Source: Flavobacteriaceae bacterium (GTDB lineage: Bacteria > Bacteroidota > Bacteroidia > Flavobacteriales > Flavobacteriaceae). Taken from it: a stretch of DNA of 64,000 bases. Below are positions 401 to 63,700 of the stretch, piece after piece. Under the pieces are notes generated by a model. The model saw only the letters and a list, made by a program, of their open reading frames with translations, was not told the DNA's origin and did no database searches. Every line of letters starts with the position of its first letter. Positions within the stretch are counted from its first letter, which is position 1. Location of the stretch: positions 1 through 64,000 of the forward strand of contig JAKITV010000001.1 in assembly GCA_021647885.1 (NCBI GenBank). Reading direction: 5' to 3'. Made by a program: the position numbers and the translations under genes.

Positions 401-415
401 AGATTTTTAAAGAGT

Positions 416-558
416 CGTTTAACGGTTATGTGTAAGATTTCGTTGCGTGAAATTAGCGATAAACTTCACAAGTACAAAACCAACTTGAAAATCCGATAGG
501 ATTTTCCAAAGTAAGCCAAAACTTAGCAATGAATTTTACACGGTGTTGGCAATAGTTA
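416..558. repeat. cassette A downstream (3') repeat: long imperfect palindrome with inner hairpin GAAAATCC-GATA-GGATTTTC
   Basis: Outer arm TTAACGGTTATGTGTAAGATTT (419-440) pairs imperfectly with AATTTTACACGGTGTTGG (532-549); perfect 8-bp inner hairpin at 487-506; related sequence at 41651-41790 and 13822-13962. Confidence 0.8.
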
Positions 559-1569
559 CTTTTTCAGTTCTATTATCCAATTCACTAAATACTCTTTAAA
601 TGATAAATCAATATCATAAATTTCATTTGTTAGTTGATTAGTTCCTTTTTTGGTCATAAAGTGGTCTAACTTTTCAATTTCTTTAAATTCAACATTCGAG
701 TTTCCAATTCTATTTAGTTCGGTTTTACTTTGTTTTGGGTCAACTAAAATATCTTCTTTTCCAATAATTACTAAAGTTGGAAAATCAATATTCTGATAGG
801 TTTTTGTATTATCAATTCGAGCAAATTCAACATTATGAGGCATAAGGTAATTAGAAAAAGATTTTTTATTTACGTTTACTTTTTTAGATTCTTTCTTTCC
901 AATTTTCCATAAGTCCCAAGCAGTTTTATCTGGATTTTTGTCAATCAATTCATAGACATAATTTAAAGCATTTATTCGTTCTTCTGCGTTTTTACCAATT
1001 ATTAACTTGTCATAATTTTTTATTCCATTTTCAATTTGATATTTCAATAATTCTCTTGGTTTTCCAATTGGTGTTGACCATTGAATTAAGAAATCAGGTT
1101 TTACATTCTGCTCAATTGATAGAGTTGTTACTATTCCACCCAAACTGTGTCCTAAAAAACCTATTTTTTTATTTTTGATAGTTTCTATTTTTTTAAACTC
1201 GCTGTAAATTTCAATGAAATCACTCGTGTAATTTTTTGGTTGATCATTATATTCTCCTGTAGATTTTCCAACTCCTCTTTTGTCAAATTTGAAAACGCTA
1301 ATATTATTTTCAAGTAAAAATTCAGTCAAATAATTATGAGCTTTTTGAGAAATTTTTCCAGTTCCAGATATGATTACAAGGATTTTATTAAAATCGGATT
1401 TTGGGGTTAATAATGTTCCGAAAATTGTAGTTGTTTCATTGATTTTTTTACTTATTCCCTCAACGTTATAGTTTTGAATATTCTTTATTCCTTTTTCATT
1501 GTCGAACTTTTCTTGACAGAAAATCAAATTTGAAATGAATAGTAATAATATTATCGGGATATTCTTCAT
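556..1569 (-). CDS. alpha/beta hydrolase family protein (cassette A cargo)
   Basis: GHSLGG nucleophile elbow, DKRGVGKS; ATG at 1569 preferred over the upstream TTG at 1581. Confidence 0.85.
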   Translation of the reverse strand: MKNIPIILLLFISNLIFCQEKFDNEKGIKNIQNYNVEGISKKINETTTIFGTLLTPKSDFNKILVIISGTGKISQKAHNYLTEFLLENNISVFKFDKRGVGKSTGEYNDQPKNYTSDFIEIYSEFKKIETIKNKKIGFLGHSLGGIVTTLSIEQNVKPDFLIQWSTPIGKPRELLKYQIENGIKNYDKLIIGKNAEERINALNYVYELIDKNPDKTAWDLWKIGKKESKKVNVNKKSFSNYLMPHNVEFARIDNTKTYQNIDFPTLVIIGKEDILVDPKQSKTELNRIGNSNVEFKEIEKLDHFMTKKGTNQLTNEIYDIDLSFKEYLVNWIIELKK

Positions 1570-1655
1570 AATTATTGCCAATATTAAGATAAATTCAGTT
1601 TCAATTGACTTTATTGATAGCTAAACGAAGCTAGTCTTTTTTAGCACAAAGTCAA
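1570..1655 (-). repeat. cassette A upstream (5') repeat
   Basis: Reverse complement TTGACTTTGTGCTAAAAAAGACTAGCTTCGTTTAGCTATCAATAAAGTCAATTGAAACTGAATTTATCTTAATATTGGCAATAATT aligns with 15827-15913, 42575-42662 and 63618-63700. Confidence 0.75.
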
Positions 1656-1657
1656 TA

Positions 1658-4504
1658 TTAATCTATGTTATCTTGCATTTCGATTTCATTTAAAAGCAAT
1701 GGTTTTCCATAGCCTAAAGCTTCAAGTTTTTCCATCTGTGTAGCAGCATCACCAACAAATAAATAATTCATCTTATTAACGTTTAAGTATTTTTCTGCAA
1801 GCTTTTGAATGTCTTCAACAGTCATTTCTTTTACTATTGCTTCACGTTGTTTTGCATAATCGTCAGGAAGATTGTAATTACTAATATTGCTAAGCATACT
1901 TAATTTTGAGCGCATAGTTTCAAATGCTCTGGCATTACTTTTAACCATAAACCCTTTTGTAATATCAAGATCGTTTTGATTATAATTTGTACCATATTGC
2001 TCTACAATCTCTTTAACCAAAGTTGCTGACTCCAAAGTAACGTTAGTTCGTACATTACTGGATATTGTAAAAGGACCTTTAATATTTGTTCCTGAAAATT
2101 CAGACCAAATCCCATAAGTATATCCTTTTCCTTCACGTAATTGCTGTGTAAGTTGAGAAGCAAAACCACCTCCTCCTAAACGGTAATTCATAACTCTTGC
2201 TGTATAATAATCGGCATCAGTTACTGCAAGTGCAGGATAGCCAAACTGAATTACAGATTGTTTGGCATTAGGAACATCATAAAAATAGACTTTTGAAGTT
2301 TCAGGAGCAGTTGGCGTTTTTATTTCAGGGAATACAACATCTTTAATTTCCCAATTATCGTTTAAAGCTACTAATGAATTATTGACATCAGCATTAGAAA
2401 TATCACCAACCACATGAAAATTAGAAACTGTTGGTGATATATTTTGGTTGTAATAGCTTTCTAAATCTTCTATTGTAATTGCATTTACTGATGCTTCTGT
2501 TCCGATATTGTTATGAGATAGAATATGATCTTCGCCATAAATTAGTTTTGCATACTCGTTTGCTGCAATGCTATTCGGATTTCCTTTTTGACGCTGAATT
2601 TGACTCAATGTACTTTGTTTTACTAAATCAAATTCTTTAACATCCCAACGAGGTTCTAATATAATTTCTTGTACAAGATTCATCGTTGCATTATAGTTTT
2701 TTGCTAAAGTATTTCCTGTAATTATTATGGCTTCATTAGTAGCAAACGCATTAATTGAAGCACCTAAACTTTCAATGGCATTCTCTAATTGCTTTGGAGT
2801 TTTGTTTCGTGTTCCTTTTGTAAGCATATCTGCTAAAAGATTTGAAACTCCTATTTTGTTTTGATTCTCGAGAAGCATTCCTCCTTTAATTTGTAAGCGA
2901 AATTGTACTAAAGGCACTTCATTGTTTTCAATTCCGAAGACATTTAATCCAGAAGAAAATGTTTCTTTCCATACTGTTGGCACTTTTACATCAGGACTTT
3001 CTCCATATTCTGGTTCAACAGAACGGTCAAAACTAGAAGGTGTTTTTTCATAAGTAGCTGTAATATTAGCATCAAAAGTATCTTCGGCATTTTCTACTAT
3101 TTGTTCTTCTGTAACTTGAGCTAATTTTGAATCTTTTAAAGCTAGATTCACTTCACCTTTAGGTACAAAACTCGTTGCTACATAATGTTGATCTTTTATG
3201 TAAGTGTTATAAACACGCATAACATCATCGGTTGTTACAGCTAAAATATTTTTAACATCTTGATTAATAAATCCTGGGTCACCAGCAAATATTTCATATT
3301 GCGCTAACTTAAATCCTTTTCCGAGAACACTAGATAAGCCATTATAAAAACGGGTTTCTTGACTAGCTTTAATGCGATCTAAATCTTTTTGTGAAATCCC
3401 TTCAGCTTCAAACGTTGTAAAAGCATTATTTATAGCGCTCTGTACATTGTCTAAATTAGTGTTGTTAAAGGCCGTTACACTTAACATAAACTGTCCAGCA
3501 ATTTCAGAGTTGAATTGAAACATTCTTACATTATCGGTTAATTGATTGTCTTCTACCAAACTTTTATAAAGTGGAGCTCCTTTTCCTTTAGATAAGTAAC
3601 TTGCCAAAACTTCTAAAGCATAAGAATCGGAATGATATTGATATACAGATGGCCATGTTAAAGTTAATTGTGGTAATCGTGCAAAGTTATCTTCATAATA
3701 CAATTTTTTAGTTTCAGATAGTTGTACTGCTCGTTTTTCCATTTCAGGAATATCTTCACCTCTTTTTATTTCGTCAAAGTATTTTTTTACCCATGCTTTG
3801 GCTTGCTTAGTATCGAAATCTCCAGCAATAGTAAGCGTTACATTATTTGGCACATACCAACGATTGTAAAAATCTTTTACATCTTGAAGCGTTGCATTTT
3901 GCAAATCTTCTAAAGAGCCAATAACTTGCCAATTGTAAGGGTGATTTGCTGGATATAAATTTTTGCCTATTACATAAAAGTTATGTCCATAAGGACGATT
4001 ATCTACACTTTGTCTTTTTTCGTTTTTAACAACTTGCTTTTCTTTAGCCAGAACCTGTTCGGTTACAGTATTGATAAAGAAACCTAATTTATCGGCTTCT
4101 GCCCAAATCATTTTTTCGAGTGCATCCTTTGGGACTGTTTGAAAATAATTAGTTCTATCTCTACTTGTAGAACCATTAGCTCCTGAACCTCCAATACGAG
4201 CGCTCATCTTGTCTAAGCCTCCTTTTCCTAAGTTTTCCGATTCTAAAAAAAGTAAGTGCTCAAATAAATGTGCAAAACCTGTACGTCCTTCTATTTCTCT
4301 AGCAGAACCAACATGACTGGTCAGTGCTACAGCAACGACTGGATCTGATCTGTCTATATGAAAAATAACTTGTAGTCCATTATCCAAAGTGAATTTTTCA
4401 AAGTCAACATTAAATTCTGTTGTTCCTGAAGTAGTATCCTTTTCACAAGATAGGATTGCCATAAAAAGTATGACTACTATGTACTTTATTTTGAATAGTT
4501 TCAT
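1658..4504 (-). CDS. M16 family metallopeptidase (two-domain), lipoprotein-like
   Basis: HLFEHLLF zinc motif (HxxEH); Cys near the N-terminus (LSCEKD). Confidence 0.92.
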   Translation of the reverse strand: MKLFKIKYIVVILFMAILSCEKDTTSGTTEFNVDFEKFTLDNGLQVIFHIDRSDPVVAVALTSHVGSAREIEGRTGFAHLFEHLLFLESENLGKGGLDKMSARIGGSGANGSTSRDRTNYFQTVPKDALEKMIWAEADKLGFFINTVTEQVLAKEKQVVKNEKRQSVDNRPYGHNFYVIGKNLYPANHPYNWQVIGSLEDLQNATLQDVKDFYNRWYVPNNVTLTIAGDFDTKQAKAWVKKYFDEIKRGEDIPEMEKRAVQLSETKKLYYEDNFARLPQLTLTWPSVYQYHSDSYALEVLASYLSKGKGAPLYKSLVEDNQLTDNVRMFQFNSEIAGQFMLSVTAFNNTNLDNVQSAINNAFTTFEAEGISQKDLDRIKASQETRFYNGLSSVLGKGFKLAQYEIFAGDPGFINQDVKNILAVTTDDVMRVYNTYIKDQHYVATSFVPKGEVNLALKDSKLAQVTEEQIVENAEDTFDANITATYEKTPSSFDRSVEPEYGESPDVKVPTVWKETFSSGLNVFGIENNEVPLVQFRLQIKGGMLLENQNKIGVSNLLADMLTKGTRNKTPKQLENAIESLGASINAFATNEAIIITGNTLAKNYNATMNLVQEIILEPRWDVKEFDLVKQSTLSQIQRQKGNPNSIAANEYAKLIYGEDHILSHNNIGTEASVNAITIEDLESYYNQNISPTVSNFHVVGDISNADVNNSLVALNDNWEIKDVVFPEIKTPTAPETSKVYFYDVPNAKQSVIQFGYPALAVTDADYYTARVMNYRLGGGGFASQLTQQLREGKGYTYGIWSEFSGTNIKGPFTISSNVRTNVTLESATLVKEIVEQYGTNYNQNDLDITKGFMVKSNARAFETMRSKLSMLSNISNYNLPDDYAKQREAIVKEMTVEDIQKLAEKYLNVNKMNYLFVGDAATQMEKLEALGYGKPLLLNEIEMQDNID

Positions 4505-13808: not shown

Positions 13809-13821
13809 GGATTTTGGGAGA

Positions 13822-13962
13822 TCGTTTATCGGTCTAGTATAAGAATAGTAGCGGATTTTCACGCACTTCCTTTTCGGTTTTACACAGACCTTTTTTATAT
13901 TTACTTCCTTTCGTTTTAGCGATTAAACCGCTATTATTTTTATACATTGTTGGTAGCAGTTA
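13822..13962. repeat. cassette B downstream (3') repeat: imperfect palindrome
   Basis: AGTATAAGAATAGTAGCGG (13836-13854) pairs with CCGCTATTATTTTTATACAT (13928-13947); ends in GTTGGTAGCAGTTA; starts TCGTTTATCGG like cassettes A and C. Confidence 0.75.
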
Positions 13963-14262
13963 TATTTCTTCCAATTTGATATAAAAGTAATAATATAATA
14001 CGATTAAAAAATATCCAATTACACCAAAAATTAGACCAATAAAAAGGGATTTGGCAAGTTTATTTTTTAAAAATATAATACTATAATAGGAAGGTATTAC
14101 TGTGGATAAAAAACCACCAATAAATGTAAGAGTTGTCATTCTTTCAGGTTTCAGTAAAGTATTACATTTGTGGCAATGCCAAGAAGTAGTATTAGACATT
14201 AAGAATAAATGTTTAATTTTTTGTTTTGAATGACAATTGGGGCAAGTATAACTATTTTTCAT
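13960..14262 (-). CDS. small zinc-ribbon membrane protein (cassette B)
   Basis: CPNCHSKQ...WHCHKCNTLLKPE followed by two predicted TM helices; overlaps the upstream gene by 4 nt. Confidence 0.7.
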   Translation of the reverse strand: MKNSYTCPNCHSKQKIKHLFLMSNTTSWHCHKCNTLLKPERMTTLTFIGGFLSTVIPSYYSIIFLKNKLAKSLFIGLIFGVIGYFLIVLYYYFYIKLEEI

Positions 14263-14807
14263 AGTGTTAAAAGTTTGTAGGTTATAAAAACAATAATAAT
14301 AGGTAAAAAAGTTATTAAGAACGTATTTGCAAGAGATATTTTCTTTTCAAAAATCAAATAAAAAAATAGAAATATTGAAGGAATTATATAGACAATATAA
14401 TTTGAAATTATAGATGAAAACTCAAAATCTATAAAAGGTACTATAGATCTATTTTTATATAATATAATACCTTCGACATCAATGCTGTTTAAATCTAAAA
14501 GATAATAAAAATTTAAGATAATAAAAATAAAATTTGGCAACATAGAAAAAGTAATTATCTCACTTAAGCCATCTATTTTTTTATCAATTACAACAAAAGA
14601 ACATACATTAAATAATATATAAAAAAAGGTAAAAAACAGAAAAGGATACATAAAACCAGATACAAAATCAATTGTTAAAATCAACTCCTGCAAACTTGAA
14701 TTAGTATCTGATATGTTAGTTTTAAAAATAAACTCTTTTCTTAATGATGAAATAGAATAACCGAAAACTATTAGAAAAAAAACAATAAAAATTTTATTTA
14801 CTTTCAT
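14259..14807 (-). CDS. multi-pass membrane protein, possibly YIP1-like (cassette B)
   Basis: Five or so hydrophobic segments; start MKVNKIF at 14807 preferred over the ORF-caller start at 14840. Confidence 0.65.
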   Translation of the reverse strand: MKVNKIFIVFFLIVFGYSISSLRKEFIFKTNISDTNSSLQELILTIDFVSGFMYPFLFFTFFYILFNVCSFVVIDKKIDGLSEIITFSMLPNFIFIILNFYYLLDLNSIDVEGIILYKNRSIVPFIDFEFSSIISNYIVYIIPSIFLFFYLIFEKKISLANTFLITFLPIIIVFITYKLLTL

Positions 14808-14808
14808 A

Positions 14809-15318
14809 TTAAATAATGTTTGGAGATACATAAACCTCAATTAAACCAGCCACAAATATGATTAATATTGAGATTATTGTTTTTTTTAATAGTTTAACGA
14901 AATCTAACTTAATCTTTTTTGATAAAAAAATGTAGTTAAATAAAAACAATCCTATTTCAATACCTATTGCACCTGCTAAAATAAAACCTAAAAATTCCAT
15001 TGAATGAGGCAAAAGGATTAAATATAATTTTGTGTCAATAGTATAAATTACTTTTAAAAGATAAGACAAGAAAATACCATTATATAGAAGGTTTACGCTT
15101 GTTAATAAGCCAAAAGTAAGACCTCCAAAGATATTTATTATAACTACCTTCAAATTAGTATATAAAATATTATATAGAGTTAAGTTTTCTTTTAGATTTA
15201 ATGTATTAGAATTGCTAGACTCAAAAGTGTTGATATTTGGCAAATCGTTATTAAAATAGAATAGACCTATGATAAGCCCTAATAAAAAAATGAATATTGA
15301 TATTAAATTATATTTCAT
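14809..15318 (-). CDS. SpoIIM / DUF95-like membrane protein (cassette B)
   Basis: LLPHSMEFLGFILAGAIGIEIG and C-terminal AGLIEVYVSP match the SpoIIM/DUF95 pattern. Confidence 0.8.
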   Translation of the reverse strand: MKYNLISIFIFLLGLIIGLFYFNNDLPNINTFESSNSNTLNLKENLTLYNILYTNLKVVIINIFGGLTFGLLTSVNLLYNGIFLSYLLKVIYTIDTKLYLILLPHSMEFLGFILAGAIGIEIGLFLFNYIFLSKKIKLDFVKLLKKTIISILIIFVAGLIEVYVSPNII

Positions 15319-15380
15319 TTACTCTTATTTTATAAACTACACGAATTAAAGAGAACTTAACTCGTGTAGTCCTATCATAA

Positions 15381-15644
15381 TTATAAGCCAAAGCCAATAC
15401 CTACAGCCCAACCAACAGGTCCTCCAGCAATTGCAGTAGCTAACCAAGAATAAGCAGCTCCTTGACCTACTCCTAAAGCACCCACGAAAGCAGTTTCTCC
15501 ATTTGAATAGCCATTTTCCGCCATATAATAAGTTATAGCTACATAGGCTTTTCCATTTTCAACTTCGTTGTTTGCCAATTTAATCCCTGTTGTAAGGAGT
15601 GCACTAAAGGTAGTTAGTAACACAATTTTTCTTAATAATTTCAT
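15381..15644 (-). CDS. small Gly/Ala-rich hydrophobic peptide, bacteriocin-like precursor candidate (cassette B)
   Basis: 87 aa, N-terminal signal-like segment RKIVLLTTFSALLTTGIKLA; C-terminal GALGVGQGAAYSWLATAIAGGPVGWAVGIGFGL. Confidence 0.6.
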   Translation of the reverse strand: MKLLRKIVLLTTFSALLTTGIKLANNEVENGKAYVAITYYMAENGYSNGETAFVGALGVGQGAAYSWLATAIAGGPVGWAVGIGFGL

Positions 15645-15826
15645 AATAAATGATTTATAAGTTAATATTAGAAAGAATAGATTATTAAGTCGCTATTCTC
15701 AAATTGTGGTCTTTCCACGTTTTCGACTTTTTGTTAATAGTACAATTTTACTTTTCAAAAGAGTAAATTCCTTTTTTATTTTTAATTCCGTAAGTGGGAT
15801 GATCTTAAATTCACTTTCTTCTGTCT

Positions 15827-15913
15827 AATTGCTACCAATGTAATGATATGTTCAGTTTTAATTGATTATATCAAACGATAAACGAATTTAGCTTTTTTTA
15901 ATATAAAAATCAA
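15827..15913 (-). repeat. cassette B upstream (5') repeat
   Basis: Reverse complement TTGATTTTTATATTAAAAAAAGCTAAATTCGTTTATCGTTTGATATAATCAATTAAAACTGAACATATCATTACATTGGTAGCAATT aligns with A, C and D. Confidence 0.75.
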
Positions 15914-15993
15914 TACGTAACCTTACCTAATTTTAGCACAAAAGCAAATTATTTATCCTAGTCTATAAATAACAAATAACAATCAACTAATAA

Positions 15994-41650: not shown

Positions 41651-41795
41651 TTCGTTTAACGGTTTTGTGTATGATTTCGTTGTGTATGCAAGCTCTAAAA
41701 TAGCAAATAATAACGAAGTAGAAAATCCGAGAGGATTTTCAGAAGTAGGCGAGAAGAAGCAATTACTTATAGCCGTCCTAAGTTTGCTTTCGTTA
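41651..41795. repeat. cassette C downstream (3') repeat
   Basis: TCGTTTAACGGTTTTGTGTATGATTTCGTTG (41652-41682) identical to the cassette A arm at all but 2 of 31 positions; inner hairpin GAAAATCCGAGAGGATTTTC (41721-41740) differs from A at 1 of 20. Confidence 0.8.
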
Positions 41796-42557
41796 TTTTG
41801 TTTCATCCTCGATTAGTTTAATCAACTCTTTTGTTTGAATAATCATTTGAGAATATTTTTCAATCAAAATGTTGGTATTAAAATCTGAAAGTGAAAGTCC
41901 ATTTCTATAAAGTTTACTTTTTTTAAGAGATTCAAAATCATTCCTTTCAATTTTAATATCTGATTTGTTTTGACCTTTAGATAGTTGCTCTTCAAAATTC
42001 TCAATTGATGACTTAAAGTCTACAGAATTGAAAAAAACTTCATAAAGATAACGTTCGTAGTCTTGCTGCATTTCTGCTTCAACAAAGGCGATACTTTTAT
42101 AACTAGTTTGCATATTCTGAAGCTTGTACTTTATTTCTATGTTAGAAATTAATGACAAATTTCCTGCGTTTAAAAGTTCATCATAAGTATTGTTATTTTG
42201 AATGAAAGGATACCATTCAAGAACATTAAGATTGTGATAGTTGAATTTATTTAAATCTACAAGACTATCCATTTCAAAATATTTTAAAACAAATTCAGTG
42301 GATCTTAATTCGTCAGTTCTTATACTAATAAAATCATCAAGAGCTTTTAAATTTTGAATTTGATCAATTCTAATATTGATTAAATATATTATCTCTTTAT
42401 CCCTTGTTTTTTTCTTTTCATTTAAATTGTTAATCTGTAGTGCAATTAAAATTCCAATAACAACAAGAATGATTTCTCCAAGTGCATATTTAAAATACTT
42501 TCCAGTTTTTCCTTGTGAAAGCAAATTTCGTCTAATTTTTCTAAAGAATTTTATCAT
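41793..42557 (-). CDS. DUF6090 family membrane protein (cassette C cargo)
   Basis: MIKFFRKIRRNLLSQGKTGKYFKYALGEIILVVIGILIALQINNLNE. Confidence 0.9.
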   Translation of the reverse strand: MIKFFRKIRRNLLSQGKTGKYFKYALGEIILVVIGILIALQINNLNEKKKTRDKEIIYLINIRIDQIQNLKALDDFISIRTDELRSTEFVLKYFEMDSLVDLNKFNYHNLNVLEWYPFIQNNNTYDELLNAGNLSLISNIEIKYKLQNMQTSYKSIAFVEAEMQQDYERYLYEVFFNSVDFKSSIENFEEQLSKGQNKSDIKIERNDFESLKKSKLYRNGLSLSDFNTNILIEKYSQMIIQTKELIKLIEDETK

Positions 42558-42574
42558 TGGTTAATGGTTTGTCA

Positions 42575-42662
42575 TAATGAAGCACAATATTAAGCTAATC
42601 AGAGTTTTAATTATTATAAGTGTCTGTTAAACGAATTTCGACTATTTTTTCGACAAAGTCAA
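42575..42662 (-). repeat. cassette C upstream (5') repeat
   Basis: Reverse complement TTGACTTTGTCGAAAAAATAGTCGAAATTCGTTTAACAGACACTTATAATAATTAAAACTCTGATTAGCTTAATATTGTGCTTCATT aligns with A, B and D. Confidence 0.72.
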
Positions 42663-42675
42663 GCTTCTAAATATG

Positions 42676-63612: not shown

Positions 63613-63617
63613 TTAGT

Positions 63618-63700
63618 TTGATTCTTAAATAAAAAACTAATATCTTCGTTTAACATCAGATATAATCAATTAACACAGACTATATCAAACCTTTACCAAA
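63618..63700 (+). repeat. cassette D upstream (5') repeat; downstream end outside window
   Basis: TTGATTCTTAAATAAAAAACTAATATCTTCGTTTAACATCAGATATAATCAATTAACACAGACTATATCAAACC closely matches cassette B (GATATAATCAATTAAAACTGAACATATCATTAC). Confidence 0.7.

Follow-up and report, generated by a model that had tools for sequence, protein, structure and literature searches.

What kind of unit carries the hydrolase gene that lies between the valS stop (400) and the stop of a convergent M16 gene (1658)? The window, the whole stretch of DNA analyzed here, comprises 64,000 nucleotides of a Flavobacteriaceae genome (contig JAKITV010000001.1, positions 1 to 64,000). An earlier note had described the unit, cassette A, as a cargo cassette bounded by terminal inverted repeats (TIRs), with an outer pair of TCGTTTAnC copies and an inner pair flush with the cargo. 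All of these repeats were found in a sequence check at the positions given for them. TCGTTTAnC occurs seven times in the window (1.8 expected; 0 of 100 shuffles reached seven). The note's recurrence of the repeats at other loci holds as three full pairs (415/1620, 13822/15877 and 41652/42626) and a fourth copy at 63646, whose downstream end lies outside the window, with an attC-like site at 64249-64393. The 3' side of cassette A is, as described, an imperfect palindrome of ~130 nt with a perfect central hairpin (487-506).

The roles assigned to the two pairs have to be revised. The inner pair, TTGGCAATA (1573-1581) and TATTGCCAAC (545-554), is the cassette boundary itself, since cassette A has the layout of the array cassettes described below, with cognate ends. 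The cassette is the inner unit, 423-1581, and not the outer unit bounded by TCGTTTAnC. The inner pair differs between cassettes and keeps its complementarity inside each one. The outer pair is part of the target, its two repeats being the arms of a docking site (dock), and remains in empty sites. The homology noted beyond TCGTTTAnC is, on the 1629-1658 side, promoter-like sequence of the dock rather than an element end. Cargos are indeed unrelated between copies, but not always single genes, as cassette B has several ORFs. Two models were used, R1 for attC-like sites (built from 37 sites, that of cassette A among them) and R2 for the left part of the dock only (dock B among its building sequences). 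The features of the window are listed with strand in parentheses.

1582..1658 (-): dock A, left part; R2 80.8 bits, dock alignment and covariation
TTG 1653-1655 and TAGCTTCG 1626-1633, 19-nt spacer (-): promoter-like sequence of dock A; pattern match
1620-1629 (-): outer arm of dock A, TTCGTTTAGC, then an attI-like inner hairpin and the crossover at 1582/1581
423..1581 (-): cassette A, beginning TTGGCAATA and ending CCG; junctions from empty docks (A/TTAAACGA) and array cassettes
1573..1581 (-): R' of cassette A, the start TTGGCAATA; 9/9 complement of the R'' 1027 nt downstream
556..1569 (-): cargo of cassette A, alpha/beta hydrolase (Hydrolase_4, S33); Pfam E 1.1e-18, ATG 12 nt past the crossover
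545..554 (-): R'' of the attC-like site, TATTGCCAAC; sequence and site alignment
423..554 (-): attC-like imperfect palindrome of cassette A, hairpin 487-506; R1 117.5 bits, E 1.6e-22, match 414-554
415..422 (-): dock A, right arm TTAAACGA (TCGTTTAA on the + strand); both outer arms are kept in empty docks
15839..15916 (-): dock B, left part; R2 82.6 bits (member of the R2 building set)
13830..15838 (-): cassette B, TTGGTAGCA ... TGCTACCAAC, several ORFs, one of the SpoIIM family (PF01944); sequence and Pfam
13821..13958 (-): attC-like site of cassette B; R1 69.4 bits, right arm ATAAACGA at 13822-13829
42588..42665 (-): dock C, left part; R2 79.3 bits, ortholog in the sister genus with another cassette
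41660..42587 (-): cassette C, DUF6090 protein at 41793-42557; Pfam E 7.5e-8
41651..41787 (-): attC-like site of cassette C; R1 90.9 bits, right arm at 41652-41659
63615..63692 (+): dock D, left part, degenerate, with approximate crossover; R2 54.4 bits
63693..64000 (+): start of cassette D, AAA/kinase-like cargo; Pfam AAA_18, continues outside the window
Contig 64249-64393: attC-like site of cassette D; R1 38.7 bits

Cassette arrays and attC-like sites

In the closed genome G018, matches to the 3' palindrome lie mostly on one strand and form two dense clusters, which are tandem cassette arrays. Cassettes in tandem and in one orientation, mostly with one ORF each and separated by attC-like sites, were found there as well as in G132, G088, G065, G140 and others, and arrays reach 90+ cassettes in other Flavobacteriaceae. 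Each unit is laid out as GTT-xxxxxxx-ORF-xxxxxxxAAC-hairpin-CG, its start being complementary to the sequence before AAC within the same unit. Among 302 adjacent pairs from nine array stretches in eight genomes, cognate start-to-site complementarity averaged 6.06 of 7 positions, and 87% of pairs matched at 6/7 or better; non-cognate combinations averaged 2.70 of 7, with 4.9% at that level. No target-site duplication was found at the cassette junctions.

The attC-like sites are mostly 135-141 nt long. In their main stem, both sides have changed in a compensatory way in 8 of 13 pairs, as against one change confined to one side; for 35 of 37 sites the bottom strand folds better than the top strand. 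An imperfect palindrome, an AAC/GTT core, R''/R' and L''/L' arms and folding that favors the bottom strand are the anatomy of an integron attC. At E <= 1e-3, R1 matched 135 of the 151 Flavobacteriaceae genomes sampled; other families of the class have matches too, more thinly spread. Arrays of other genera contain cassettes related to dock cargos, with DUF6090 in G065 and, at 48% identity, a Fic-like protein in G132, so docks and arrays share one pool.

Within the G018 arrays (L075-L081), sites with TGTACATAAC accompany a near-identical short cassette, a ~557-bp repeat present in about a dozen copies across both arrays. A cassette of the second array (L080:3493-4773) codes for a 426-aa tyrosine-recombinase-like protein. 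Several attC-like sites per contig were seen on four contigs of the viral collection IMG/VR (L324-L327), reflecting either phage carriage or misassigned host DNA.

Docks and their occupancy

In the window's genome, solitary cassettes with a findable start almost all lie in one context: TTGACTTT-N-AAAAAA-nCTAnCTTCGTTTAAC-hairpin-TTAACA, then the cassette, then TTAAACGAAnnnAAAAA. Bacteroidetes promoters follow the pattern TTG-N19-TAnnTTTG. The docks carry TTG-N19-TAnnTTCG; their first part fits this pattern and is promoter-like. The dock hairpin covaries (GATATA/TATATC versus GCTAAT/ATTAGC), and the outer arms differ from dock to dock and match inside each dock. In docks C19:46454, C21:54493, C30:1345, C52:92728 and C51:34023, the inner hairpin is longer and includes an additional segment, e.g. 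CTCAACTTGATTGAGTATAAA. Several docks of this genome (e.g. window 1658, C15:39597, C7:14626 and C1:31112) start 0-13 nt past the stop of an upstream gene on the same strand. A convergent gene would read the A-run of the promoter spacer as a T-run, so that an empty dock might also serve as the terminator of that gene.

With R2 (left part only), 30 docks were detected in the window's genome at E < 1e-3. Five of them are empty (C18:19511, C15:60385, C15:39597, C20:523 and C51:34023). As predicted, each has an uninterrupted junction, A/TTAAACGA or the matching arm variant, and each retains the promoter-like part and both arms; only the inner unit is gone. The repeat models and genome scans therefore bear out the earlier note's expectation of a repeated cargo-cassette family with many paired copies and clean empty sites.

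An initial restriction of docks to the genus of the window and a single sister genus was overturned by the family-wide search, in which 36 of 151 genomes had docks. In nine other genomes (three of them single-contig), 20 docks were retrieved with the left part as sole query. A downstream attC-like site followed in 16 of the 20, and of these 16, 12 had a start complementary at 8/9 or better at the crossover, while in 13 the right junction was exactly TTAAACGA. Retrieval by nothing but the left part makes these docks an independent test of the model. A further dock, in G090:C1, is empty.

Contents were compared using 25 docks from congeners and a sister genus, 12 of which have flanking genes in common with docks of the window's genome. 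A common cassette was found in none of the 12 orthologous pairs. Both docks are filled, with different cassettes, in seven pairs and both are empty in one; in two pairs the dock is empty only in the window's genome, and in two only in the relative. In the case of dock A, the congener G002 has, ahead of the same valS end (82% DNA identity), CCG/TTAAACGA, a different cassette (TTGTGTGTC...GTCACACAAC) and a dock. When relatives were searched with the M16 flank for a place that has no dock, the sole close match was in G003, where the contig ends inside the locus and yet another cassette is present. The counterpart of dock C in G010 also holds a different cassette, whose product we take, judging by eye, to be a putative alpha-L-fucosidase. 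The empty sites anticipated in the earlier note are thus present as empty, filled and exchanged docks at orthologous places. At the level of sequence, docks are positionally stable and cassettes are not, related species having different contents. The orthologous docks G000:C15:39597 and G003:C88:9478 have near-identical left flanks and quite different inner hairpins, each self-complementary.

The array-head recombinase and the nature of the system

A tyrosine recombinase, usually of 370-400 aa, heads arrays in six genomes. Among 80 loci from named genomes, chosen by recombinase similarity, there were 43 attC matches, 43/43 on the recombinase strand and all in Bacteroidota, including Winogradskyella, Algibacter, Seonamhaeicola, Mesonia, Lutibacter, Zunongwangia and Arcticiflavibacter. 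At the nine loci with an identified start (8-9/9 complementarity), the first cassette begins 37-162 bp past the recombinase stop, which is the integron arrangement of an attI by the recombinase gene with the first cassette there. One type of attI is a hairpin followed by TTG/TT or ACG/TT, in a subgroup that apparently includes the recombinase of the window's genus (G000:C13 and G003:C97, both placed by sequence and left out of the tree described below). The other, ATATAAC..AG/TT, occurs in other array genomes. Docks resemble the first type; most array genomes have an attI that lacks the dock's hairpin. The window's genome itself has a relative of the array-head recombinases (G000:C13:70-1062) whose C-terminal catalytic part is lost at the contig end, and its full-length 376-aa homologue in the congener (G003:C97) is likewise at a contig end. 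Most attC-bearing loci have no recombinase within the stretch read, and many recombinases of the same group have no array in the fetched loci. Because of such array-less relatives, and because each genome has several tyrosine recombinases, the assignment of the recombinase rests on linkage.

The IntI-specific domain around patch III is required for integron-mediated recombination and is part of IntegronFinder's test (PMC9668308), by which the array-head recombinases do not qualify as IntI. No protein in 40 genomes exceeded the TIGR02249 cut-off of 265, sub-threshold matches being the only ones, as in all 14 control genomes. The array-head proteins score 184-204 bits against that cut-off and are missing the profile stretch ~180-238, and the IntI motif is present in 0 of 14 of them versus 7 of 8 IntI controls. 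In an unrooted 40-row tree, the eight proteobacterial IntI group together (98/95); a supported branch separates them from the 14 array-head proteins, which are intermixed with Bacteroidota relatives in whose fetched loci arrays were not found. Similarity to XerA-type recombinases (NF040815, 'site-specific tyrosine recombinase/integron integrase') is greater: the array-head recombinases score 201-230 bits, the cut-off of 220 being reached by 3 of 6. In contrast to that type, most have an extra ~100-aa N-terminal region and are linked to cassette arrays. The earlier note had recognized no named element family, yet cassette, attC, attI and adjacent recombinase make up the anatomy of an integron. 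Since the IntI test was made and came out negative, the system is integron-like by anatomy and not an integron by the usual definition.

Taken together, cassette A is very probably a mobile gene cassette of an integron-like Flavobacteriaceae system. The limits of cassettes and docks, the empty and filled states, the species-specific contents and the recombinase linkage are read directly from the DNA; for the recombinase and the movement, we infer their part. A transposon- or MITE-like element with TCGTTTAnC as its TIRs, whose promoter, cargo and two ends would all move together through a transposase supplied in trans, would explain why the outer arms are inverted repeats, why the left part recurs as a dispersed family and why the unit has no enzyme. 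Such an element would leave an empty site with the whole unit and its TIRs gone, but only the inner unit is lost and the outer arms stay. As these arms vary among copies and agree within a copy, and identical types of inner units stand head-to-tail in arrays that have no outer repeats, we consider this origin highly improbable.

It is unlikely, too, that these are ordinary IntI integron cassettes (SALIN/CALIN) whose integrase was merely missed. The attC anatomy, array structure, attI position and TIGR02249 scores of the array-head proteins would agree with this, but nothing rises above 265 in the 40 genomes, the ~180-238 stretch and the IntI motif are missing, the proteins fall outside the IntI group of the tree, and closed array genomes have a non-IntI gene heading the array. 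Almost no weight can be given to the palindromes being RNA elements or terminators, i.e. UTR structures of unrelated genes, conserved as RNA and immobile. They do fold, they lie close behind ORFs, and an empty dock could terminate its convergent neighbor; however, G-U replacements are almost absent from the covarying stem, the strand opposite to the transcript folds better, and cassette boundaries are exact, with empty/filled pairs. An Rfam search returned two tRNAs only, the attC-like palindromes matching no Rfam family.

For the integron-like system, we propose that the XerA/IntI-like tyrosine recombinase at the array head would recognize a folded single strand of the attC-like site, presumably the bottom strand because it folds better, as in integrons. 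It would excise cassettes as circles, out of arrays or docks, and insert them into attI or a dock, at the GTT/ATT point. Each dock promoter would then drive its own cassette, which would make the genome a 'distributed integron' with many single-slot expression sites instead of, or beside, one long array. Docks would thereby supply each cassette with its own promoter, in contrast to the one-promoter array. More broadly, it seems likely that Flavobacteriaceae have an integron system of their own whose tyrosine recombinase does not belong to the IntI group. It would comprise large arrays, present in many genera, and attI-like docks in about one genus in four, where up to dozens of them are dispersed, keep their positions and bear promoters; the cassettes of these docks would be exchanged between species, and IntI-domain detection would miss the system.

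Sedentary chromosomal integrons (IntI, attI, Pc and attC array) are alike in many respects: promoterless-looking cassettes in a single orientation; attC-like hairpins with an AAC...GTT core, cognate R''/R' arms and a better-folding bottom strand; and a recombinase gene at one end of arrays of up to 90+ cassettes, adjoined by an attI-like site and the first cassette. They differ in that the present recombinase is without the IntI-specific stretch and outside the IntI group, its gene and the cassettes usually share one strand, many attI-like docks are dispersed, each with promoter-like sequence, and the sites are 135-141 nt with a GTT(A/G) core and variable outer arms of ~10 nt. SALIN and attG insertions are lone cassettes outside an integron that IntI places at non-classical sites of the genome. 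Single cassettes scattered over the chromosome are common to these and to our system; the targets here, however, are one repeated hairpin- and promoter-bearing family at orthologous positions rather than scattered weak sites (attG is named in PMC12901181).

Integrons have been reported as nearly absent from Bacteroidetes, with one complete case, Salinibacter ruber (PMC9024848), in contrast to the arrays (up to 90+ cassettes) and dispersed docks that were found here across most of the genera sampled from a single family. No description of this system was found in the open-access literature (subscription papers and preprints lay outside the search). Should the array-head recombinase be the integrase of the cassettes, folded-site capture either arose outside IntI or needs no IntI-specific domain, and both alternatives would bear on integron evolution.

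Relatives of the system were also observed on plasmids. On pHH1107 (L331:6600-6910) and Acinetobacter indicus p80-1-2-tetX3 (L328), tet(X3) is closely preceded, on its own strand, by a short recombinase of the array-head group that has 44% identity to the G018 protein across 60% of its length. A search behind tet(X3) gave no intact attC-like site. Between recombinase and tet(X3) lies a hairpin, GTGGATATATACGCCATTTGGCGTATAGCCACTTG/TTATGTGCCA, that resembles the attI of Winogradskyella-type arrays. A recombinase relative and an attI-like hairpin upstream of tet(X3) on Acinetobacter-type plasmids suggest that other bacteria may have received genes from the system. On the Flagellimonas marinaquae plasmid NZ_CP092416, which also has erm(F), xerA and a Tn3-family transposase, a 126-bit attC-like site (L330:5877-6013) lies directly 3' of a DHFR-family gene.
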